Shown in pieces: positions 2,091-23,260 of a stretch of 23,656 bases of DNA. Both the position numbers and the translations under genes were made by a program. Position 1 is the first letter of the stretch, and each line of letters starts with the position of its first letter. Source of the DNA: a virus; IMG/VR virus record IMGVR_UViG_3300025122_000164, positions 1 through 23,656 of that record. One strand, given 5' to 3'. The notes under the pieces are model-generated. The model made no database searches, was not told the origin of the DNA, and saw only the letters and a list, made by a program, of their open reading frames with translations.

Positions 2091-2108
2091 GAGGATTAAA
2101 CGATAATG
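2091..2108 (+). promoter_or_regulatory. Ribosome binding site of sheath copy 2, derived from a repeated gene end
   Basis: The ten bases TGAGGATTAA that end sheath copy 1 (2071-2080) recur at 2090-2099, then ACGATA and the ATG at 2106. Copy 2 ends with the same ten bases (5465-5474), followed by TACGATA. GAGGA at 2091-2095 is well placed as the Shine-Dalgarno. The repeat looks like a scar of the duplication junction: the former downstream flank of a sheath gene now serves as the leader of the next copy. This is inference from the repeat pattern. Confidence 0.55.
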
Positions 2109-5100
2109 TCTGTTAATAAATTTAAGTTTGTTTCGCCCGGGGTTTTTGTTGACGAAATTGATCAATCCCAACTCCCGGCAATACCCACCAAAATGGGCCC
2201 AGTAATTATTGGCCGTGCCGAACGCGGACCAGCAATGAGGCCGATAACAGTTAATTCGTTTGCTGAGTTTGTTGAAATTTTTGGTGATCCAATTCCTGGC
2301 GGCTACGCAAATGATGTTTGGAGGAATGGCAATCATTCAGGCCCTACATATGGTGCTTTTGCTGCGCAAGCATACTTGCGAAATAGCAACCCTGTAACGT
2401 TTGTTAGGCTTCTGGGCAAGCAACACACTTTGGCCGATTCTAGCCTTGCAAACAAAGGCCAAGCCGGCTGGAGTACAAAAAATGAAGTAAATCCATCCCC
2501 GGGAAGTAGCGGAGGGTCTTATGGCCTTTGGGTCATTGAATCTGGATCTGTCGGTACCAACGCGCGTGTAGACGACGCGCTTAAAATTACAGGCGGAACT
2601 GTTGAGCACAACGATGCATTTACTGTCCTTGTTCCTGCGGCTGCTGGTGGATACGCCGGCGACATTACTATCACGGTTCTGGCGCGAACATCGATGGGAA
2701 GTACCCCATCTGCAAATCAGATTCATTGGCTGCTCTCTGGCACCGATGCCGCTAAAATCGCAAATTTAAAACTTGTATTTAATGGCACTACTGACACCAC
2801 CAAAGTTAAATTTGGATCTAGTTTTACAAACACAATTGGTGTTAAAGGACTCACAGCATCTGATGGCGTAACGACTACAGACTCATATGCTAGTCTGGCC
2901 GCGGACTTCTATGGAACGGCCGGAAATACTATCGCACTTACAGACACAGTTGGTTCAGTTCTTGTCAACGAAAGCGCCCTTACAAGCGGAAAACTAGCCG
3001 GCGGCACGCATGGCGCTCAATTAACTTCGCTTACCGGCACTCTCGCCGCTGTTTGGTATTTAAATGAAGCGACAATTGAGCTTTTCGGAACGGTTCGGCA
3101 TGGCGCCGCCTCGCAAAGCGGTTCCTGCGTATTTATTAACAGTTTAGGAGGCACCGAGGAAACTACTGAATTTAGAGCCCTCATCAAAGATACGAGCGGA
3201 AATAAAATTGTTAATACATCGTTTAATTTTGATCCAACTTCGGATAAGTACATTCGAAAAGTATTTAATACTAATCCGACACTAACTAATTCTGATATTT
3301 ATTCTACAACACAGAAATATTGGCTCGGAGAAACTTTTGATAGAGCAGTTGGCGAAAAGTTGACAGCAAACGGCGCCGGAAAAGCCTTCGGTGTCATTTT
3401 GGGGATTTCTTCTGGAAGTTACGAATATAGCAAACAAAGAAAAGAGTCTGTTAACGCTGAAACAGGCTGGATCATTTCTCAGGATCTTGGAAATGTAACT
3501 GCAAACACCGCAAATGATTTTGACGGCTTAGACCAAGATAGAGCTAAAAGATTATTTAGATTTATTGCCCTTGATACGGGCGAATGGAACCAAAATAACC
3601 TGAAAGTTTCCATTGCCGATATTGAACCAGCAGTGTCGGACACAAATTGGCCAACATTTTCAGTCGAATTGCGTCAAATCACCGATCACGATAAAGGCAA
3701 GCAGGTCGTTGAGAAGTATTCAAATCTCAACATGAACCCATCTTCGCCAAATTATATTGCACGAAGAATCGGCACGAGATATACAACTTGGAACGCCACA
3801 GATAAACGTTTGGAATATCATGGCGACTATGAAAATATCTCCAAGTTTATGCGAATTGCGATGCACGAAGATGGCCCAACTCGTGAGCATCTTCCATTCG
3901 GTTCTTATGGCCCAATTCGATTCAAAGGCTTTACCATTAAAAGTGGCAGTGCAGGAAAGTTCGCACAGGATGATACTTTTGTTGAGGCGTCTTTAGACAT
4001 TGCACACACACATGCAAGCGCATCAATTGTCTCTGATGGCATATATGTAGGTCCATTCGACTTCAACGGAAGTTTTGAATTCCCCGCAGTGCCTCTTCGA
4101 AAGAGCGGATCTGAAGGTGGTATCTCTATTGATACAAAAGCATATTTTGGCGCAGACACCACAAAAAGAGCAGCTGCAAACATACGTTATAACGCTAGCG
4201 TTGGAGACATTGTTCGTACGAAACCTGGCCAGTCAAAAGATGTATTTGATATTGTTGATAGCCCAATTACAACTGGCGTGCCAAACGCAGAACGTTCTTG
4301 GATCTTTACACTAGATGATATTAAATATGATAACACAACTCAAAGATTTTATTATGCTAGCGGTAGCCGACAACTCGGAAAATCTTGGACCGCACTGAGC
4401 GGCACAAATAATCTCTTGACCGCCTCTGATGCCGGCATAAATAAGTTTACGACTGTTTTCTATGGCGGCTTTGATGGCTTAGATATTAAAGAGCGCGAGC
4501 CGTTTAGAAATGAAGATGTTTTGAGCGCCGCCGGCGACGGTGGTGATGAAAAATTAAGCTATGCTTATCACACTCTTATGAGAGCAATTGATTTAGTTCG
4601 AGATGCGGAACAAGTCGAATGCAATTTGATGGCAATTCCTGGCGTGACCAATAAAAATATTACAGAACGCCTTGTAAGAACTTGCGAAGAACGTTCAGAT
4701 GCATTGGCAATTATTGATATTGAAAACGACTTTGTTCCCGATACAGAAAATACTAGCGACGCCTCAACACGCCAAGGTGATGTTCCGCAAGCCGTTAGAG
4801 CAATGCAGGATCGCACAGTCGACTCAAGCTATGGCGCGGCGTACTATCCATGGGTTCAGATTAACGATAGAAGAACTGGAGTGATGTTCTGGTGTCCGCC
4901 ATCTGTTGTTGCGATGGGTGCAATGGCATATAGTGAAGCGGTGAGAAACGTTTGGTTTGCTCCAGCCGGATTTTCACGAGGTGGTTTGACCGCGACTGGC
5001 GCAGGAGGCCTTACAGTAACTGGTGTGCGCCAACATTTAACATCGAAGCAAAGAGATCAACTTTACGAAGTTAACGTCAATCCAATTGCTTCATTCCCGG

Positions 5101-5474
5101 CGGAAGGTATTGTAATATTTGGTCAAAAGACTTTGCAATTGACGCCTTCTGCACTTGATAGAGTCAATGTTAGAAGATTGTTGATTTTCCTCAAAAAGGA
5201 AATTTCAAGAATTGCTGCACAAACTTTATTCGAGCAAAACATTCAAGAAACTTGGAATGGATTTGCATCTAAAGCTGACAGCGTATTGAGTTCTGTTAAA
5301 TTAGATTTTGGTTTAACCGAGTATAGGCTGGTTCTAGATGAAACTACGACCACTCCGGAACTAATTGATAGAAATATTATGTATGCTAAGATATTCTTGA
5401 AGCCTGCACGAGCAATTGAGTTTATTGCTCTTGATTTTATTATCACAAGCGCTGGTGCTTCTTTTGAGGATTAA
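2106..5474 (+). CDS. Tail sheath protein, copy 2 (complete, 1122 aa)
   Basis: Complete contractile sheath subunit. The N-terminus (SPGVFVDEID, then VIIGRAERGP and YGAFAAQAYLRN near residues 78-89) is typical of the sheath family, and the C-terminal third carries the conserved core. At 1122 residues it is much longer than T4 gp18 (659). The extra length is mostly a Gly/Ser/Thr-rich beta-type region at about residues 120-400, which probably forms additional surface domains. Residues 433-1122 duplicate the upstream gene. The ATG at 2106 has GAGGA about 10 bases upstream and starts exactly at the conserved sheath N-terminus. A weak hairpin/terminator separates it from the tail tube gene, a spacing that could let sheath and tube be expressed at different levels. 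Family assignment is firm; the role of the insert is not known. Confidence 0.93.
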   Translation: MSVNKFKFVSPGVFVDEIDQSQLPAIPTKMGPVIIGRAERGPAMRPITVNSFAEFVEIFGDPIPGGYANDVWRNGNHSGPTYGAFAAQAYLRNSNPVTFVRLLGKQHTLADSSLANKGQAGWSTKNEVNPSPGSSGGSYGLWVIESGSVGTNARVDDALKITGGTVEHNDAFTVLVPAAAGGYAGDITITVLARTSMGSTPSANQIHWLLSGTDAAKIANLKLVFNGTTDTTKVKFGSSFTNTIGVKGLTASDGVTTTDSYASLAADFYGTAGNTIALTDTVGSVLVNESALTSGKLAGGTHGAQLTSLTGTLAAVWYLNEATIELFGTVRHGAASQSGSCVFINSLGGTEETTEFRALIKDTSGNKIVNTSFNFDPTSDKYIRKVFNTNPTLTNSDIYSTTQKYWLGETFDRAVGEKLTANGAGKAFGVILGISSGSYEYSKQRKESVNAETGWIISQDLGNVTANTANDFDGLDQDRAKRLFRFIALDTGEWNQNNLKVSIADIEPAVSDTNWPTFSVELRQITDHDKGKQVVEKYSNLNMNPSSPNYIARRIGTRYTTWNATDKRLEYHGDYENISKFMRIAMHEDGPTREHLPFGSYGPIRFKGFTIKSGSAGKFAQDDTFVEASLDIAHTHASASIVSDGIYVGPFDFNGSFEFPAVPLRKSGSEGGISIDTKAYFGADTTKRAAANIRYNASVGDIVRTKPGQSKDVFDIVDSPITTGVPNAERSWIFTLDDIKYDNTTQRFYYASGSRQLGKSWTALSGTNNLLTASDAGINKFTTVFYGGFDGLDIKEREPFRNEDVLSAAGDGGDEKLSYAYHTLMRAIDLVRDAEQVECNLMAIPGVTNKNITERLVRTCEERSDALAIIDIENDFVPDTENTSDASTRQGDVPQAVRAMQDRTVDSSYGAAYYPWVQINDRRTGVMFWCPPSVVAMGAMAYSEAVRNVWFAPAGFSRGGLTATGAGGLTVTGVRQHLTSKQRDQLYEVNVNPIASFPAEGIVIFGQKTLQLTPSALDRVNVRRLLIFLKKEISRIAAQTLFEQNIQETWNGFASKADSVLSSVKLDFGLTEYRLVLDETTTTPELIDRNIMYAKIFLKPARAIEFIALDFIITSAGASFED
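3402..5474 (+). repeat. Tandem duplication: copy of bases 2-2080
   Basis: Bases 3402-5474 are a diverged direct repeat of bases 2-2080 (offset 3400 at the start, 3394 at the end). Identity is patchy. Runs of complete identity, such as 248-367 versus 3648-3767 (120 bases) and 2003-2080 versus 5397-5474 (78 bases), sit beside strongly diverged segments such as 541-720 versus 3941-4110. The repeat probably extends to the left of the window. Confidence 0.93.
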
Positions 5475-14557: not shown

Positions 14558-16195
14558 ATGCCCTATAAAAAAAATATACAAAAAACAATTGCTTTTGGTA
14601 ACAATTCGCGCAATGCAAAAGAACTATTCTTTTTTAAAAATTTTTATTATGATAAAATTTATCCAAATGGAAAGTTACCATGGGCAGAACGTCCATTGGA
14701 CTTTATTAATAATAATCCTCTATATGGCAAAGTTGATCTGGACAAAAATTTTATTTATCCCAAACCAAAACATTTAAGGCAAATAAATGTTGGAAAAGCC
14801 AAAACAAAAAATTTAAAAGTTTTTGACTTTGTAGCTACTGCATTTGAAGATTTTCGAGACCACATGCATGCACAAGTTAATAACGGACACCTTCAAGCTG
14901 GCCATGCAATAGCTGCATGTGATCCTAAAAGAACTTTTGTAGAGACAGAAGTATTTTATAAAAAATTTAAAGAACTTCACTGGGCATACTTTTCACTAAT
15001 ATACTTATCAACTCCTTCAGATCATGATGTGGTAAGAAAATTTCCTATAAAAGAACAAATTGATAATTTTTCTCAGTTTGTGAAGTATTACATAGAATTT
15101 TTAAAAACAGCAGCTCCGGAAATTCCAATCACATTAACCGGCGCGCTAAAAACGAGCTATGCGTCACCACTTATGACCGGCTTGTGTGTTGAAATTCACG
15201 ATAAAGCGTATGATGATGATAGAGCTAAGCAAGAATTTATCGATAGTCCTAATTTCAATTTTTTTAAATGTACGGCTAGGAGATATGGTTTTGTATTAGA
15301 TAGAAATGTGCCGTGGAGATTGGTAGCGGATGTAACCTCTCTTAAGATGAGAGAATATATGCGAATCGCCTTTGAACAGCCACAAATTGAAGAAAAGCAA
15401 GCTATAACTCTACAAGAGAGGTTGGATTTATTGCAGACCATGACGCCAGCCGTCATTACCGTTGACGACATTGTTGATTTTAATTTAGTGAACCCGCTGG
15501 CAGATTGGCCCCGTAGTGAAGTTTTAAACTTTCAAAAAGAAACCATGAACCAGTTGCAAGAAGTAAAAACCTTAATCATGAACAGTAATGCCGAAAATTG
15601 GGAAGAGGTGAAACTCAAAGGGGCAGCAGATCCTAATATGACGAGCATCGTTCTGCCCGCCCTCAACCCCTCTGAAGAGGGCATACAAGGACTAGTTCCA
15701 GATTGTGATGGAACAGTTTGTTCAACCAGAGTTATGAAATTTGACTTTTTCTTTGAAGAATATTATAACAAATCACACTCTGAAGATATTTGGGAATTGC
15801 GAAAGATTCTTTGGCAATTTTGGACAAGCTGGATTGAAAATCATCCTTATGTTAAAAAAGTGCGCACAGTTGGCTGTCTGGAAAGTGGATTTAAAACTAA
15901 AGTAGTCGAAGAAAAAGAAATACAATTTATTGAATGGGATGATTTTAAATCGCAGTATGGCGAACTTTTTTGGCTTAAGTTTTATTTTGATGTCCGGACG
16001 GTTGAAAATAAGATAAAATGGGACCCTATTGATCGCAAGAAGAAAATGAAAAAAATTAACTTTTTAAATAAAACACTTGACTTTTACCGCGCTGTAGATT
16101 ACATTAACAGAGTAACAAGTGTTGAAATGCTTGATGCACAAGAAATATATGTCCCCACACCGGAGGCAGAAGAACTAATTTTAGATTGGGCTTAG
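14558..16195 (+). CDS. Unknown large virion/baseplate protein (545 aa)
   Basis: The family is not recognised. It is a soluble protein rich in aromatic and Lys residues with no signal or membrane segment. Notable stretches are the N-terminal FGNNSRNAKELFFFKNFYYD, a helical part with FVKYYIEFLKTAAPEIPITLTG near residues 170-195, YGFVLDRNVPWRLVADVTS near 245-265, and a C-terminal half with IWELRKILWQFWTSWIENHP. It starts 8 bases after the 1099-residue gene and ends 10 bases before the polymerase gene, so it belongs to the tail transcription unit by position. A baseplate or tail-associated structural role is inferred from context only. The ribosome binding site (TAGGTT) is weak, which suggests coupling to upstream translation. 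Confidence 0.7.
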   Translation: MPYKKNIQKTIAFGNNSRNAKELFFFKNFYYDKIYPNGKLPWAERPLDFINNNPLYGKVDLDKNFIYPKPKHLRQINVGKAKTKNLKVFDFVATAFEDFRDHMHAQVNNGHLQAGHAIAACDPKRTFVETEVFYKKFKELHWAYFSLIYLSTPSDHDVVRKFPIKEQIDNFSQFVKYYIEFLKTAAPEIPITLTGALKTSYASPLMTGLCVEIHDKAYDDDRAKQEFIDSPNFNFFKCTARRYGFVLDRNVPWRLVADVTSLKMREYMRIAFEQPQIEEKQAITLQERLDLLQTMTPAVITVDDIVDFNLVNPLADWPRSEVLNFQKETMNQLQEVKTLIMNSNAENWEEVKLKGAADPNMTSIVLPALNPSEEGIQGLVPDCDGTVCSTRVMKFDFFFEEYYNKSHSEDIWELRKILWQFWTSWIENHPYVKKVRTVGCLESGFKTKVVEEKEIQFIEWDDFKSQYGELFWLKFYFDVRTVENKIKWDPIDRKKKMKKINFLNKTLDFYRAVDYINRVTSVEMLDAQEIYVPTPEAEELILDWA

Positions 16196-16205
16196 AGGTC
16201 CCATT

Positions 16206-17396
16206 TTGCTTTTCCAAACGTTTGACGATAAAGAGAGGTGTATTGCATTATATGCCAAAGAAAAGCTTTTCTTCAAAAAGCCGCCCTCTAAACTAACTAA
16301 AACTTGGTCGTACTCGGAATTTTTATCAGACAAAGACGTTGAATATGCTCAACTTTATTGTGCCGGCAAATCTTTAGATCAGACTTGCCCTGATCACTTA
16401 AAAAAAGATTGGGAGAAAGTAAGCAACAAGTTAAAAGCTTTTTATAGGTCTGCTTTAGAAGCAGAGCTAGATCTTAACGAGCATTGTTTTTATGACATGG
16501 TTCCACAAAATTTTTTAATTGATTACGCAGAGATCAAAAATAAAATATGCGCTCATGTTTTTAGCACGCATGAAAAGCCACACAACTATGATCATTTATC
16601 CGACCTAACAAAGGTTTTGGTCGAGATCAAAAATAAAAAATTAAATGTAGATGCAACACAGCTGAGCAAAGAACTTCATAAATTTAAAGTACGCCGCTTT
16701 GTAAAGAAAATAAAAAGAATTGCACCTTATATAAAATACGACTCCTTTCGAACAAAAACTGGACGCCTGGCCACGTACTCAAATTCTTTCCCCATTTTGA
16801 CAATGGATAAATCTTATCGTAAAATTCTCAAACCAAAAAACGATTGGTTCTTAGAGTTTGATTATAATGCGGCAGAGCTTCGCGTAATGCTCGGGTTGCT
16901 AGAGAAAGAGCAACCAAAAGAAGATATACATGAATGGAATTTGAAAAATGTATATAACGGAGTGGGCACGCGGGAAGAAGCAAAGAAAAGAATATTTGCT
17001 TGGCTGTATAATCCAGAATCAAAAGACGCCCTCTCAAGCAAGGCATATGATAGAGATGGGCTTTTAAATAAGTATTGGGACGGGGCTAATGTAAAAACAT
17101 GCTTTAATAGAGAGATTGAAGCGGACGCACATCATGCATTAAACTATATCATTCAGTCAACGGCAGCTGATTTATTTCTTCGACAAATGATTGAAGTTTG
17201 GAAGCTGCTTAAAGGCAGGAAGTCTTACATTACATTCTGCATGCATGATTCTCTTGTGATTGATTTTTCCGAAGAAGAGCAGCATTTGTTAAATGAACTT
17301 AAAGAAAAATTTGAAAATACAATATTCGGCAAGTTTAAAGTGAATAGTTCAGCCGGAAAAAATTACGGCGAGATGAAAAGATTAAATGTTCATTAA
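16206..17396 (+). CDS. Short family A DNA polymerase, no visible exonuclease domain
   Basis: Template-directed DNA synthesis. The signature elements of the polymerase I family are present: FRTKTGR (181-187), motif A FDYNAAELR with the metal-binding D219, the O-helix pattern R256-x3-K260-x3-F264-x3-Y268 that binds dNTP, NYIIQSTAADLF (313-324), and motif C H347-D348-S349. At 396 residues it is far shorter than Klenow-type enzymes (about 600). The 170 residues before the palm show no DEDD exonuclease motifs, so proofreading appears to be absent. T4 itself uses a family B polymerase. The start is TTG at 16206 with AGAGGT 6 bases upstream; the next in-frame ATG would remove about 97 residues. A 5' nuclease is coded separately at 21678. 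Confidence 0.88.
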   Translation: MLFQTFDDKERCIALYAKEKLFFKKPPSKLTKTWSYSEFLSDKDVEYAQLYCAGKSLDQTCPDHLKKDWEKVSNKLKAFYRSALEAELDLNEHCFYDMVPQNFLIDYAEIKNKICAHVFSTHEKPHNYDHLSDLTKVLVEIKNKKLNVDATQLSKELHKFKVRRFVKKIKRIAPYIKYDSFRTKTGRLATYSNSFPILTMDKSYRKILKPKNDWFLEFDYNAAELRVMLGLLEKEQPKEDIHEWNLKNVYNGVGTREEAKKRIFAWLYNPESKDALSSKAYDRDGLLNKYWDGANVKTCFNREIEADAHHALNYIIQSTAADLFLRQMIEVWKLLKGRKSYITFCMHDSLVIDFSEEEQHLLNELKEKFENTIFGKFKVNSSAGKNYGEMKRLNVH

Positions 17397-17423: not shown

Positions 17424-17819
17424 ATGAAACTTTCCAAACGAATGCTTAAGCAAATAATTAGAGAAGAAATTTTGAACGAAACCAACGGAGACTCTCCTTT
17501 TGCGCGCGCCGTAGACCGCCCCTTGGCATCTGAATCCGAACCTGAAGAAACCGCGGCACCCGGGCAAACCAAATCTACTCCTAGCGGATTAGAAGGCATT
17601 GACCCAAAAGGATCTTTGCGAGACAGTATGTTTAAAATAATGCAAATCATATCGGCGTATCAAGTTGATTTTGTCGGCACAGAAAAAGCAGTATTTCTTA
17701 ACCACCTAACAGCGCTGATTGAGTCCTTCATAGAATCAGATATTTCTGCTGAAAGCTCACTTAGGATGCGCTTAAATCAAACTGCCGCAGAAATGGAAAA
17801 AATTAATCGACGAAAATAA
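17424..17819 (+). CDS. Small protein with possible capsid-targeting N-terminus
   Basis: A 131-residue protein of unknown family. Its N-terminus, MKLSKRMLKQIIREEI, closely matches that of the protein at 20903 (MKLTKAKLKQLIQEEL), while the rest is unrelated. After it comes a Pro/Ser/Glu-rich, probably disordered linker (about residues 18-60), then a helical domain (about 65-131) containing FKIMQIISAYQVDF and an Arg/Lys-rich end. T4 internal head proteins begin MKTYQEFIAE and are cut after the (I/L)xE by the prohead protease; I12-R13-E14 here would fit that rule. A packaged internal protein is therefore a reasonable hypothesis, but no more. AAGGAG upstream is a strong ribosome binding site. Confidence 0.75.
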   Translation: MKLSKRMLKQIIREEILNETNGDSPFARAVDRPLASESEPEETAAPGQTKSTPSGLEGIDPKGSLRDSMFKIMQIISAYQVDFVGTEKAVFLNHLTALIESFIESDISAESSLRMRLNQTAAEMEKINRRK

Positions 17820-17827
17820 GAGGCAAA

Positions 17828-18679
17828 ATGAAAACAATAATTGGCCTAGGCCAAGCCGGCTGCGATATCGCAGAAAAATTCAAAAAATATCCTCAATATA
17901 AAGTCTATAAGATAGATGTTGGCCTGGAAGAGGCCGACTCATACGCAATGAAGCGCCAAACAAGTCCAGAACTTTATGAATCTAAATGTCCAAGCTTAAA
18001 GACGTTTTTTAAGGAGGTGAGTAATGAAGTATTATTTATTACAAGCTCTGGGAATATCTCTGGTGCCTTATTGCGTATTTTAGAACAATTGAGAGGCAAA
18101 GCTGATATTGATGTTTTATATATTAAGCCCGATTCGAGCCTGTTATCCATGGCAGAAAAATTACAAGAGAATGTAGTTTTTCAGGTATTGCAAGAGTATG
18201 CTCGCTCAGCAGCTTTTGAGAAAATTTTTCTTATTGACAATGCGCAGCTAACAGAAGTCGTTGGAGATGTGCCAATTAAAGAGCACTATAATTATTTAAA
18301 TGAAGCCATTGTTTCTACGATACATATGATTAATGTATTTGATAATTCTAAGTCTGTACTGGACAATTTCTCTCCACCAATAGAAACTGCAAGAATATTT
18401 ACTTTTGGCCTAATAAACTTTGAAGAGGAAGAAGAAAAAATGTTCTTCGACCTCCAAATGCCACGGGAAAAGAAATACTATTATGCATACCCAGAAGAAG
18501 CAATTGAATCAGACGGAACCCTAATGAAAAAAATTAAAAAACACATTAAAAAAAATACAGAACATGATAAGATGAAGATCAGCTATGGGATATATTCAAC
18601 AAACTACGAACAGCCGTATGTTTATTGTCTATCCAATAGCACACTTATTCAAGGAAGTGAAAAAATACTTGACAAATAA
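17828..18679 (+). CDS. Tubulin/FtsZ/CetZ-like protein
   Basis: A 283-residue protein that matches the tubulin superfamily at several separate points. The N-terminal strand and loop IIGLGQAGCDIAEKF (4-18) closely resembles the T1 loop of CetZ/FtsZ. After strand FITSSGNISGALL, the nucleotide T4 loop, normally GGGTGSG, appears as S73-S74-G75-N76-I77-S78-G79. FLIDNAQLTEVVGD (134-147) followed by a helix with N155..N158 matches the FtsZ segment that precedes helix H7. GLINFEEEEE (194-203) matches the T7 synergy loop, with N197, E199 and E202 where FtsZ has N-x-D-x-x-D. It is shorter than FtsZ (about 380), with only about 80 residues after T7. Jumbo phages use a tubulin (PhuZ) to position DNA; whether this one polymerises is unknown. 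It starts 9 bases after the previous gene, with AAGAGG upstream. Confidence 0.75.
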   Translation: MKTIIGLGQAGCDIAEKFKKYPQYKVYKIDVGLEEADSYAMKRQTSPELYESKCPSLKTFFKEVSNEVLFITSSGNISGALLRILEQLRGKADIDVLYIKPDSSLLSMAEKLQENVVFQVLQEYARSAAFEKIFLIDNAQLTEVVGDVPIKEHYNYLNEAIVSTIHMINVFDNSKSVLDNFSPPIETARIFTFGLINFEEEEEKMFFDLQMPREKKYYYAYPEEAIESDGTLMKKIKKHIKKNTEHDKMKISYGIYSTNYEQPYVYCLSNSTLIQGSEKILDK

Positions 18680-18755: not shown

Positions 18756-19523
18756 ATGTCAATTAATATGGAAAAAATGAAATCACGGCTTACCACCCTT
18801 AAAAATAACGGTAGAACTGACGCACAATCGCGCTTTTGGCGACCGCCGGATGGCGAATCAACAATTCGAATTGTCCCCACTGAAGATGGAGATCCGTTTA
18901 AGGATTATTGGTTCCATTACAATCTAGGTGAAAACCCTGGCTTTCTGAGTCCAAAAAAGAATTTTGGCGATGACTGCCCACTGGATTCTTTTGTTCGCAA
19001 TCTTTGGAAAGAAGGAACGGAAGAAAGTAAACGAATGGCTAAAAAGCTTAACGCTCGCCAGCGATTCTTTACACCAGTTGTTGTACGCGGAGAAGAAGAT
19101 CAAGGTGTACGAGTCTGGGGTTTTGGAAAGCAAGTGTATGAAACACTTTTAAACCTTGTGCTAAATCCGGAATATGGAGACATTACAGATCCTGAAGCTG
19201 GTACTGATTTGGTCATTTCTTATGGCAAGCCAGCCGGAGCTTCATTTCCTGTGACAAACATCACTCCCCGACGACGAAATTCCCAACTTTGCTCGGAGGG
19301 TCCTGAAAAGTGTCGTGAAGTTTTGGAAAACATTCCAGACTTCGATGAACTTTTTGAAGGAAATCGCAAGACTTTCTCAGAAATTCAAACGATGCTTGAT
19401 CAATTTCTTTTGGGCGAATCTGACTCAGAAGAAGTTTCATCCGAAACTACCAAGTATAACAACAACAACAGTGAAAAATCAAACTCTGTTGATGAAGCGT
19501 TTGCAGATCTCTTAGGTAGCTAA
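18756..19523 (+). CDS. Single-stranded DNA-binding protein (gp32-like)
   Basis: Coats single-stranded DNA during replication and recombination and works with the recombinase coded just downstream. The 255-residue layout follows T4 gp32 (301 residues): a short basic N-terminus (MEKMKSRLTTLKNN) of the kind used for cooperative binding, an OB-fold core with FWRPPDGESTIRIVP and an aromatic strand DYWFHYNLG, a low-complexity linker, and an acidic C-terminal tail with VDEAFADLLGS that in gp32 recruits partner proteins. H54 and C74 may correspond to two of the T4 zinc ligands, but the following C-x2-C pair is not seen, so the zinc site may be lost. A dedicated promoter, a leader hairpin and a terminator surround this gene, consistent with separately controlled, high expression. 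Confidence 0.85.
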   Translation: MSINMEKMKSRLTTLKNNGRTDAQSRFWRPPDGESTIRIVPTEDGDPFKDYWFHYNLGENPGFLSPKKNFGDDCPLDSFVRNLWKEGTEESKRMAKKLNARQRFFTPVVVRGEEDQGVRVWGFGKQVYETLLNLVLNPEYGDITDPEAGTDLVISYGKPAGASFPVTNITPRRRNSQLCSEGPEKCREVLENIPDFDELFEGNRKTFSEIQTMLDQFLLGESDSEEVSSETTKYNNNNSEKSNSVDEAFADLLGS

Positions 19524-19594: not shown

Positions 19595-19753
19595 ATGGAT
19601 GCAAAGTTTATTGTTTGGGATCAGATCTCACTTCACGGCGCAACGCCCAAAGAAACATTCAACATTGTGAGAGAATACTTTCCAGAAATTTCTGATGAAG
19701 AGCTTAATGTTTTGATTCAAGAGGAAGTAAAGAAGAAGGCCGGAAATGGCTAA
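19595..19753 (+). CDS. Small acidic helical protein coupled to the recombinase gene
   Basis: A 52-residue protein of unknown function with start ATG 19595 and GGGAGAAAA upstream. The sequence reads as three short helices: an N-terminal VWDQISLHGATPKETFNIV, then YFPEISDEELNVLIQEEV, then a basic KKKAGNG end. The pattern of a first helix, a turn with P-K-E, and D/E-E-L is like small helix-turn-helix or UBA-like folds, but this is only a resemblance. Its last eight bases (ATGGCTAA) overlap the start of the recombinase gene, so the two are translationally coupled and probably made in related amounts. It may be an accessory factor of the recombinase, but nothing in the sequence proves that. Confidence 0.72.
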   Translation: MDAKFIVWDQISLHGATPKETFNIVREYFPEISDEELNVLIQEEVKKKAGNG

Positions 19754-20864
19754 GACAAAAACAACAAAAGCTGGCAAGCTTTCGAGCACGGATATGCGCA
19801 AAATCCTCAATAAGAAAGCTGGCATGAATATTGCGCACAACTTAAATGAAGACAGCCCAACAATTGTAAAAGATTGGATTCCAACCGGATCTCGCTGGCT
19901 CGACTCTATTACGTGTAGAGGAAAACTAGCAGGAATTCCAGTAGGAAAAATTGTGGAGATTGCTGGATTAGAATCAACAGGCAAATCATACATGGCTGCA
20001 CAAGTTGCTGCCAATGCTCAAAAGAAAGGCATTGATGTAGTTTACTTTGATTCTGAATCTGCAATTGATCCTGGCTTTTTAGAAAAGGCTGGGTGCAATG
20101 TAGAAGATATAATCTATGTGCAAGCCAGTTCAGTAGAGTTTGTACTTGGGGCAATTGAAGAGTTGCTTGGCAACAATGAAAACCGAATGCTTTTCATTTG
20201 GGATTCTTTGGCGCTGACACCATCAAATTCTGATATTGAAGGAGACTTCAATCCTCAATCGTCGATGGCAGTTAAGCCTCGTATTCTTTCAAAAGGAATG
20301 TCAAAGCTAACAGTGCCAATTGCAAATAGCCAATCTACGCTACTAGTTTTAAATCAGCTTAAAACAAACATAACAAGCAATATTGCTGAAGCTTTAACTA
20401 CGCCATATTTTACTCCTGGCGGAAAAGCAATGATTTATGCTTATTCGCTTCGCGTCTGGCTTACAGGTCGCAAAGCAAAGAACTCATTTATTTATGATGA
20501 TAAAGGATTTAGAGTTGGCTCTGAGGTGAAAGTTAAGCTGGAGAAATCTAGATTTGGCACACAAGGACGAAATTGTAATTTTAAGATTTTGTGGGGTGAT
20601 GAAGTTGGAGTTCAAGACGAAGAAAGTTGGCTAGACGCAATCAAAGGCTCAGATCACCTAAAGCAATCTGGTGCTTGGTTTGAGTTATGTTACGAAGACG
20701 AAACCAGTGAAAAGTTTCAAGCTGCCAAGTGGACTGAAAAACTTCAAGATAAAAAGTTTAAGGACCGTGTTCTAGAAGTTATGGACGAAGAGATTATTCG
20801 TAAATTTGACGATAGAACAGGAAATGCTGCAGATTACTACGAAAAAGAGGAAGAATCGGCCTAA
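19746..20864 (+). CDS. UvsX/RecA-type recombinase
   Basis: An ATP-dependent strand-exchange protein for homologous recombination and recombination-dependent replication. The 372-residue length is near T4 UvsX (391). The Walker A motif is G74-L-E-S-T-G-K80-S81, which follows the bacterial RecA type more closely than the unusual UvsX motif. VVYFDSESAID contains the catalytic-type E104, Walker B is MLFIWDS with D153, and LLVLNQLKTNI followed by YFTPGGKAMIYAYSLRVWL corresponds to the DNA-binding loop and the following core strands. The C-terminal part (about 290-372) is charged and helical. The start overlaps the small upstream gene by 8 bases. A gp32-like protein is coded just before, as its functional partner. 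The identity is strong; UvsX versus RecA subfamily is less certain. Confidence 0.92.
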   Translation: MAKTKTTKAGKLSSTDMRKILNKKAGMNIAHNLNEDSPTIVKDWIPTGSRWLDSITCRGKLAGIPVGKIVEIAGLESTGKSYMAAQVAANAQKKGIDVVYFDSESAIDPGFLEKAGCNVEDIIYVQASSVEFVLGAIEELLGNNENRMLFIWDSLALTPSNSDIEGDFNPQSSMAVKPRILSKGMSKLTVPIANSQSTLLVLNQLKTNITSNIAEALTTPYFTPGGKAMIYAYSLRVWLTGRKAKNSFIYDDKGFRVGSEVKVKLEKSRFGTQGRNCNFKILWGDEVGVQDEESWLDAIKGSDHLKQSGAWFELCYEDETSEKFQAAKWTEKLQDKKFKDRVLEVMDEEIIRKFDDRTGNAADYYEKEEESA

Positions 20865-21677: not shown

Positions 21678-22655
21678 ATGAAAAATAAACGAGTAATGGT
21701 AATTGATGCCTTAAATCAATTTTTAAGGGCATATATAGTTAATCCAACTTTATCTCCAAACGGCGACCCCGTTGGCGGAGCAATTGGATTTCTTAAAATC
21801 CTACAAAAACTTTGTCGAGAAATAAAACCAGACAAAGTTGTCATTTGTTGGGATGGGCAAGGCGGGAGCAAAAAGCGCAAACTTATAAACAAAAATTATA
21901 AGGGAGGTCGCAAACCGCTTCGACTTAATCGCGACATCAAACATTTGACAGAGGAAGAGGAGCTTCAAAATAAGATTTGGCAGCAGACACGCCTGGTTGA
22001 TTATTTGAATAATTTTCCAGTCACTCAGTTAATGTTTGAAGGCGTGGAAGCAGATGATGTCATCTCTTTTGTTTGCCAAATGCCAAAGTTTAAAGGATGG
22101 CAAAAAGTAATTATTTCAAGCGACAAGGATTTCTTTCAATTGCTTGATGATGAAACAATTGCTTATCGTCCAACTCAACATGAAATCTTAAATAAGAATA
22201 TGATTGTAGAAAAGTTTGGCATCCATCCAACAAACTTTGCTTTGGCACGCGCAATAGTTGGAGATCAAAGCGATAATCTTGAAGGCATCAAAGGCGTTGG
22301 ATTGCCAACGGTTGCTAAAAGACTATCATTTTTAAGTGAAGAGAAGACTTACACAATTCCGGAAGTTGTGGAATTTTGTGAGAATGCAAACAGCAGCTTA
22401 AGGGCGTACAATAATATTGCCGAGAGTCAAGAATTAATAGAACAAAACTATCAGCTAATGCAGTTGTATAGCCCAAATATTTCAGTTCAGACAAAAAACA
22501 AAATTAAATATATTGTCAACAATGCCGAGTCCACATTTAATAAAACTTATACAAATACTATGATGCTGGAGGATGGCGCAGGCAATTTAAATTGGTCAGA
22601 TTTATTTATAATTTTTAAGAAAATAGTATTAAACGAAAAAAGGAGTAAGGTTTGA
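21678..22655 (+). CDS. 5'-3' exonuclease / flap endonuclease (T4 RNase H type)
   Basis: Removes RNA primers and 5' flaps during lagging-strand synthesis. The 325 residues contain the FEN-family acidic sites in order: D10 in MVIDALN, D59 in ICWDG, E124/D126/D127 in EGVEADD, D149/D151 in SSDKDFF, and D196/D199 in GDQSDNL. The helix-hairpin-helix GIKGVGLPTVAK (203-214) follows. The length is close to T4 RNase H (305). A basic stretch (KKRKLINKNYKGGRK) lies in the position of the helical arch that threads the flap. The gene begins 3 bases after the polybasic gene and overlaps the protease start by TTGA (22652-22655). As the phage polymerase here is short and has no nuclease domain, this enzyme supplies the 5' nuclease activity. 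Confidence 0.9.
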   Translation: MKNKRVMVIDALNQFLRAYIVNPTLSPNGDPVGGAIGFLKILQKLCREIKPDKVVICWDGQGGSKKRKLINKNYKGGRKPLRLNRDIKHLTEEEELQNKIWQQTRLVDYLNNFPVTQLMFEGVEADDVISFVCQMPKFKGWQKVIISSDKDFFQLLDDETIAYRPTQHEILNKNMIVEKFGIHPTNFALARAIVGDQSDNLEGIKGVGLPTVAKRLSFLSEEKTYTIPEVVEFCENANSSLRAYNNIAESQELIEQNYQLMQLYSPNISVQTKNKIKYIVNNAESTFNKTYTNTMMLEDGAGNLNWSDLFIIFKKIVLNEKRSKV

Positions 22656-23260
22656 AAGATATTCAATGGCTAAATGCGGCTGCGACCTCGGCCGTGAAGC
22701 CACAAAATGACGAAGAAGAATCGAGCAATCAAGTTTCAACGCTAGACAATAGAATTTTTTTCTATTCAGGAGTAACTACATCCAATGTGTTAACTTTTAA
22801 CAAAGAAATCAGAAACTTAAACGTTAAAATTCTTAGCAGTGCCACCGCACTAAACAGCGACCCTGCTAATTTATATGTTCATATTAATAGCTATGGCGGC
22901 AGTGTTTTTGCCGGCCTGGCGGCGATGGATTATATAAGAACTTCAACGGTTCCAGTTCATAGCGTAATTGATGGCTGCGCCGCAAGTGCAGCAACATTAA
23001 TGAGCGTTGTTGCGAAAGAAAGATACATGCACGAGCATTCTTTTATGTTGATTCATCAGTTATCTTCAGGTATGTGGGGAAAGTATGAAGAACTAAAAGA
23101 TGATATGAAAAACTGCGATGTTCTGATGAAAACAATCAAGAAAATTTATATGGAACGCGCAAAAATTCCCAAAAGTAAATTAAGCCAGATATTAAAGCAC
23201 GACTTGTGGTTTGATGCAAAAACATGTTTGAATTATGGATTGGTTGACGAAATTATTTAG
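22652..23260 (+). CDS. ClpP-like serine protease
   Basis: A 202-residue protease of the ClpP/crotonase fold. The catalytic triad is visible: S112 in GCAASAATLM, H135 in FMLIHQ, and D184 in HDLWFDAK, 12 residues before the family's GLVD end. HINSYGGSVFAGLAAMDYI (78-96) forms the oxyanion and core region. The start is TTG at 22652, overlapping the previous stop, with AGGAG at 22641-22645; the first ATG-coded Met inside the fold (M92) is too late. The N-terminal 30 residues are a phage-specific, acidic extension. ClpP needs an AAA+ partner for protein unfolding and none is coded here, so it may use a host ClpX/ClpA, or act as a peptidase or maturation protease. Many phage prohead proteases of other groups have this fold, so a role in head maturation is also possible. 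Confidence 0.88.
   Translation: MKDIQWLNAAATSAVKPQNDEEESSNQVSTLDNRIFFYSGVTTSNVLTFNKEIRNLNVKILSSATALNSDPANLYVHINSYGGSVFAGLAAMDYIRTSTVPVHSVIDGCAASAATLMSVVAKERYMHEHSFMLIHQLSSGMWGKYEELKDDMKNCDVLMKTIKKIYMERAKIPKSKLSQILKHDLWFDAKTCLNYGLVDEII

Follow-up and report, generated by a model that had tools for sequence, protein, structure and literature searches.

A predicted tubulin-fold protein without the canonical catalytic signature in the replication operon of uncultured contractile-tailed phages

We analysed the whole of an IMG/VR virus record of 23,656 bases (the window), with tail genes in its left half and replication genes in its right half, and propose, at a probability of about one half, that a tubulin-fold protein encoded in it (TUB) is a nucleotide-binding, probably non-hydrolysing partner of the neighbouring PolA/SSB/RecA machinery. 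The probable ligand of TUB is a guanine nucleotide, which would be contacted by the conserved T1 loop and, at the base, by two asparagines. Since TUB has lost the T7 motif and helix H8 and carries another sequence in place of the T4 signature, canonical hydrolysis of GTP between subunits would not take place. TUB could then be a monomer, or form short static oligomers, and act as an adaptor or nucleotide-binding scaffold for the adjacently encoded PolA-type polymerase, gp32 single-stranded DNA-binding protein (SSB), UvsX recombinase and 5'-3' exonuclease. The fold, the retention and loss of motifs, the fixed gene order and the purifying selection were all established computationally, and it is from these that we infer nucleotide binding, absent hydrolysis and a physical partnership with the replication proteins. 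What is known of phage tubulins comes mainly from the cytoskeletal filaments of jumbo phages; a single-copy TUB that is fixed in a replication operon and has lost the catalytic signature allows the use of the tubulin fold to be tested outside filament dynamics.

The AlphaFold2 model of TUB, built on an alignment of 66 relatives, had a mean pLDDT of 92.6 and a pTM of 0.90 and showed the predicted layout of the superfamily, with a Rossmann-like GTPase domain, the central helix H7 and a C-terminal domain. The results of our Foldseek search of the PDB with this model showed that the best 50 matches were all FtsZ, TubZ or tubulin (top E 1.3e-12, TM about 0.7), and the top viral fold match was an uncultured phage 'FtsZ cell division GTPase' (TM 0.78). 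A second model, made on alignment A4 for the relative L192, which is 28% identical to TUB, reached a pLDDT of 94.4, and its best 50 PDB matches again belonged to the tubulin superfamily throughout. Profile-profile comparison with hhalign gave scores of 34.1 against FtsZ and 45.8 against PhuZ, while the maximum among 60 column-shuffled controls was 19.5 and 21.9, respectively, and unrelated controls scored 14 to 17. Since two divergent models agree and the profile scores exceed those of shuffled and unrelated controls, the assignment of TUB to the tubulin/FtsZ superfamily, which the first-pass annotation had made from sequence motifs, is secure at the level of predicted structure. That annotation was to be given up if the predicted structure lacked the tubulin GTPase fold or matched another family better, and the structure search returned the tubulin fold and no better match elsewhere. 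The idea that TUB belongs to some other Rossmann-like nucleotide-binding family, its tubulin motifs being coincidental, could appeal to the lack of a Pfam match over threshold and to weak noise of the Pyr_redox/TrkA_N type in a few members. It is exceedingly improbable and is disfavoured already at the level of predicted structure, given that the best 50 PDB matches of two models of 28% identical proteins are all from the tubulin superfamily and that the profile scores lie far beyond the shuffled controls.

Table 1. Positions in the window of TUB, of its sequence elements and of the neighbouring genes (residue numbers are those of TUB)
Feature	Position	Strand	Basis
TUB, tubulin-fold protein, 283 aa	17828..18679	+	ORF, AlphaFold2, Foldseek, dN/dS
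GAGG, likely ribosome-binding site of TUB	17820..17823	+	read from sequence
T1 loop IGLGQAGC, residues 4-12	17837..17863	+	conservation, aligned to FtsZ and PhuZ T1
T4 position SSGNISGA, residues 73-80, about 3 residues shorter than FtsZ	18044..18067	+	
N138, aligned with E. coli FtsZ N165	18239..18241	+	hhalign; N in 132/140
N158, aligned with FtsZ N186	18299..18301	+	hhalign; N in 133/140
Central helix H7, residues 150-172	18275..18343	+	DSSP on AlphaFold2 model
True T7 site, residues 173-189	18344..18394	+	model and conservation
Reduced C-terminal domain, residues 190-271	18395..18640	+	model secondary structure, repeated in 28%-identical relative
GLINFEEEEE, residues 194-203, strand and hairpin of C-terminal domain	18407..18436	+	model
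545-aa ORF, usually just upstream of PolA	14558..16195	+	67/93 loci
PolA-type polymerase domain	16206..17396	+	PF00476 E 1.4e-16
131-aa neighbour, N-terminal KLSKRMLKQIIREE	17424..17819	+	insertion outside conserved module
gp32-type ssDNA-binding protein	18756..19523	+	PF08804 E 3.9e-14
UvsX/RecA-type recombinase	19746..20864	+	PHROG 97 E 3.3e-52
5'-3' exonuclease, conserved partner	21678..22655	+	PF02739 E 2e-28

Residue conservation was counted over 140 TUB proteins. The segment GLGQAG (residues 6-11), read in the first pass as the T1 loop, aligned with FtsZ and PhuZ in hhalign with scores above the shuffled controls, and its glycines are conserved (G6 in 136, G8 in 138 and G11 in 136 of the 140 proteins). 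The LIDNAQLTEVVGD segment, also listed as a tubulin motif, corresponds to strand S6 and helix H6, again by hhalign alignment to FtsZ and PhuZ above the shuffled controls. SSGNISG (73-79) lies at the T4 position, after strand 66-72, as had been suggested. The T4 signature of the superfamily is GGGTG[T/S]G (PMC12583498). A check of this loop across the relatives, which had been called for, showed the replacement form [GS][SCAG]G-x-[IV]-S-[GA] and GGGTG[TS]G in 0 of the 140 proteins, so that the loss of the consensus first read from the window protein is general.

The T1 loop and both base-contact asparagines are retained in about 95% of the 140 proteins. We take N138 (FtsZ N165) to be equivalent to tubulin N206, a predicted guanine contact, and N158 (FtsZ N186) to tubulin N228, a guanine contact. 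In beta-tubulin, two hydrogen bonds link N228 to the guanine nucleotide (PMC6471726). Both asparagines were absent together in seven of the eight proteins missing either, which fall in several separate clades; such paired loss would be expected if the two touch one ligand. Judged by its sequence, then, TUB is a putative GTP-binding protein, with the T1 glycine loop and the guanine-contact asparagines present. The homologues at positions 8001-8840 of L024 and 6001-6813 of L180 have neither the T1 glycines nor the two asparagines and look like natural pseudo-nucleotide-binding versions of TUB, and in L025 and L026 the pocket residues are lost in part (T1 glycines). Nucleotide binding is therefore perhaps not universal in the family.

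The T7 loop of FtsZ, NxDxx[D/E], is located at the end of H7 (PMC12583498). Because H7 of TUB covers residues 150-172, its T7 site must be residues 173-189; none of the 140 proteins has NxDxx[DE] within residues 172-189, and no acid is conserved at residues 173-189. The first-pass annotation had placed the catalytic T7 loop at GLINFEEEEE, with its acidic residues kept. This placement was rejected on topology, as both the model and local alignment disagree with it: GLI (194-196) is within strand 190-197 of the C-terminal domain and most of EEEEE falls in the hairpin that leads from there to strand 202-205. The retention of T7 acids is likewise unsupported at the true site. A sequence-only global alignment pairs GLIN of TUB with GLMN of FtsZ, which explains the earlier guess. 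E203 is a glutamate in 122 and an aspartate in 6 of the 140 proteins and E202 is also conserved; these residues of the C-terminal domain could provide an acid through an arrangement that a monomer model does not reveal.

In known protofilaments the longitudinal contact is made by S9 together with loop T7 and the base of H8 (PMC3678025). An H8-like helix from H7 to the next strand is absent from both AlphaFold2 models (the window TUB and L192). The C-terminal domain is indeed short, as first noted: in the model H8 and the tail are both missing, the ordered structure ends with strand 264-271, which leaves 12 residues to the C-terminus, and there is no PhuZ-type C-terminal helix or acidic tail.

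Comparison of TUB with the known relatives showed that PhuZ (TubZ of phage Phi-KZ), which is also phage-encoded and of tubulin fold, gives the top profile-profile score; the T4 loop of the phiKZ protein (SMGGASGS) likewise departs from GGGTGSG and is similar in length to that of TUB. However, TUB has no direct sequence match to PhuZ, lacks the T7 motif and the C-terminal helix and tail, has a reduced C-terminal domain and is located within a replication operon. Polymerisation of PhuZ needs the C-terminal helix and acidic tail (PMC7950403, PMC3678025). FtsZ is the best PDB fold match and its T1 loop, S6 asparagine and H7 asparagine align with those of TUB, whereas TUB has no GGGTG[TS]G, NxDxx[DE], T3-like GAG loop or H8, has no C-terminal linker in its 283 aa, and is about 10-14% identical in fold alignments. 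The TubZ proteins of Bacillus plasmids (4ei7, 2xka) are also among the top fold matches, but their catalytic and tail elements are missing from TUB. The superfamily is common to TUB, CetZ (3zid) and P0005, an FtsZ/CetZ-like protein of 402 aa encoded on the minus strand of contig G013 (IMGVR_UViG_3300028045_001344; L265:5155-6363; PDB 3zid E 6e-10). Unlike TUB, P0005 retains the T4 loop (GGGGGTGSS) and sits in the head module, its gene being located between those of the portal and the prohead protease, in a phage that has TUB as well. P0005 was found in one of the 20 records searched and not in the 19 others, and the slot in contigs G001 and G002 measures only about 400 nt.

The TUB gene starts with ATG shortly after the GAGG, and the opposite strand of this stretch contains many stops. 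The dN/dS ratio was 0.04-0.13 between relatives and 0.12-0.13 between the window TUB and its nearest relatives; TUB is therefore a real gene under purifying selection. No excess of sigma-70-like promoters was observed in its region. The ratio stays in the same range for the pair L025 and L026, in which the T1 glycines are lost; purifying selection where nucleotide binding looks impaired implies that TUB is needed there, which favours a scaffold-like over an enzymatic role. Lineages of TUB that lack the pocket, in a family under strong purifying selection, would be natural variants that separate nucleotide-dependent from scaffold functions.

A single TUB protein, searched against Pfam, PHROGs, the sequences of the PDB and, by tblastn, INPHARED, had no significant match, and a TUB profile found nothing usable among PDB sequences. 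The tblastn search of the 50,697 phage records of INPHARED returned zero matches even at E<=1, while PhuZ matched 179 records of the same collection. TUB did not reach the gathering score of PF00091 (best member E 0.048), and a scan of large contigs with this model gave a weak signal at T1 of TUB, with a maximum of 13.2 bits vs a cutoff of 33. TUB relatives are encoded on at least 409 IMG/VR stretches, with one copy in each of eight large contigs (101-204 kb), and form a tubulin-fold family of their own, deep and abundant, which is absent by sequence from Pfam, PHROGs and the INPHARED records. The best explanation is that the family belongs to the core of a replication/recombination operon in a large clade of uncultured contractile-tailed phages, which we take, from the sample collections behind the contigs, to be mostly marine; TUB is a candidate new phage replication component in common ocean viruses. 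The sole match of the TUB cluster in a genome collection, a MAG of candidate division WOR-3 (L121, CP070664.1), was rejected as a link to a host: the phage piece is flanked by N runs within bacterial sequence and is probably a scaffolding chimera.

We then surveyed 93 loci with distinct complete TUB on IMG/VR contigs, which are fragments; PolA, gp32 and UvsX were counted only in loci with room for the gene concerned. The gene order was an ORF of no known family, PolA-type polymerase, TUB, gp32, UvsX and 5'-3' exonuclease. PolA was upstream of TUB in 73 of 74 loci and gp32 downstream in all 69, and UvsX was in the module in 46 of 46. The ORF that precedes PolA (545 aa in the window) has relatives 22-64% identical and no Pfam or PHROG match. 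A search with gp32 only, run to avoid the circularity of TUB-based loci, found TUB in 60 of the 62 loci that extend 1 kb or more upstream; the two exceptions (L207 and L210) are short on that side, and a TUB gene may be present beyond the contig end. The start of TUB is often 0-6 nt from the end of PolA, which suggests translational coupling. Of the two flanking genes between which TUB had originally been placed, the ssDNA-binding gp32 downstream is a constant neighbour, but the 131-aa 'possibly capsid-targeted' protein upstream is not conserved and was found by tblastn in only one other locus (L002).

The description of this phage as T4-like is apt only in part: it suits gp32, UvsX and the T4-type tail genes, but the polymerases observed are PolA-type and, in the long relative G001, also DnaE-type. 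Models of gp45-type clamp families, which may miss divergent clamps, found none in six large contigs. G001 also encodes a DnaB-type helicase, and the presence of DnaE and DnaB suggests that the set of PolA, TUB, gp32, UvsX and exonuclease may serve gap filling and recombination, not bulk synthesis. TUB was not found by this search in Flavobacterium phage immuto and Microcystis phage Mel-JY01, the nearest phages of known host having parts of the module, or in the 484-kb huge uncultured phage LR756508. Related gene orders thus exist without TUB, which is therefore not required for such a replication scheme in general. The Mel-JY01 gene upstream of gp32 was considered as the missing tubulin and rejected, being S-AdoMet-lyase-like, and the proteins encoded between PolA and gp32 in immuto and LR756508 are unrelated to TUB.

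How closely TUB would be tied to this machinery is a matter of degree. That it is a non-hydrolysing part of the phage replication/recombination complex, in direct contact with PolA, SSB or RecA, is a tentative proposal, and the fixed gene order may instead mean co-expression without contact, which is a point against partnership. If direct contact is true, TUB would be a tubulin working in DNA metabolism and not in a cytoskeleton. It is rather unlikely that TUB forms static filaments, without hydrolysis or with slow turnover, as organisers or anchors of the site of phage replication. In every solved filament of a tubulin relative the subunits are stacked head to tail. T7-mutant PhuZ still forms filaments, which are non-dynamic (PMC7950403). 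The highly conserved residues Y24, Q122, R126, S127, H166 and R189, which are off the nucleotide loops, are compatible with a contact surface, but H8, a part of the longitudinal contact in known protofilaments, is missing from both models and TUB has no PhuZ- or TubZ-type C-terminal tail.

A dynamic cytomotive filament like that of PhuZ, positioning phage DNA or capsids, would accord with the nearest profile score being that of PhuZ (45.8 vs a shuffled maximum of 21.9), with the similar T4 length and with the large genomes of TUB phages (185-204 kb). We consider it improbable, as the T7 motif is missing in 140 of 140 proteins, TUB has no C-terminal tail, which PhuZ requires for polymerising (PMC7950403), and the gene is locked in a replication/recombination operon, with no tblastn match in INPHARED. 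A tubulin fold with fewer polymerisation features could also cap a host protofilament, so that TUB might bind the FtsZ of the host as a decoy or inhibitor and thereby block division. Phages often inhibit FtsZ, which counts for this reading, but the position between PolA and gp32, fixed over a large divergence, is unusual for a host-takeover gene, the dN/dS of TUB is 0.04-0.13, the closest profile is PhuZ and not FtsZ, and our analysis found no specific support for a decoy, which makes this function quite improbable.

Other features of the window were recorded. The tail sheath coding sequence is present in two adjacent copies (269-2080 and 2106-5474), 89% identical over about 605 aa, which may be a tandem duplication or an effect of assembly; the first copy is at the start of the contig. 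A gene for a ClpP-like head maturation protease (22652-23260) adjoins that of the 5'-3' exonuclease and was seen in only 7 of the 93 loci, many of them too short to reach it. An N-terminal tag, KLTKxxLKxxIKEE, recurs on otherwise dissimilar, mostly small proteins, six of them in G001 (e.g. 127314-128180), one in the window (17424-17470) and one in L265.
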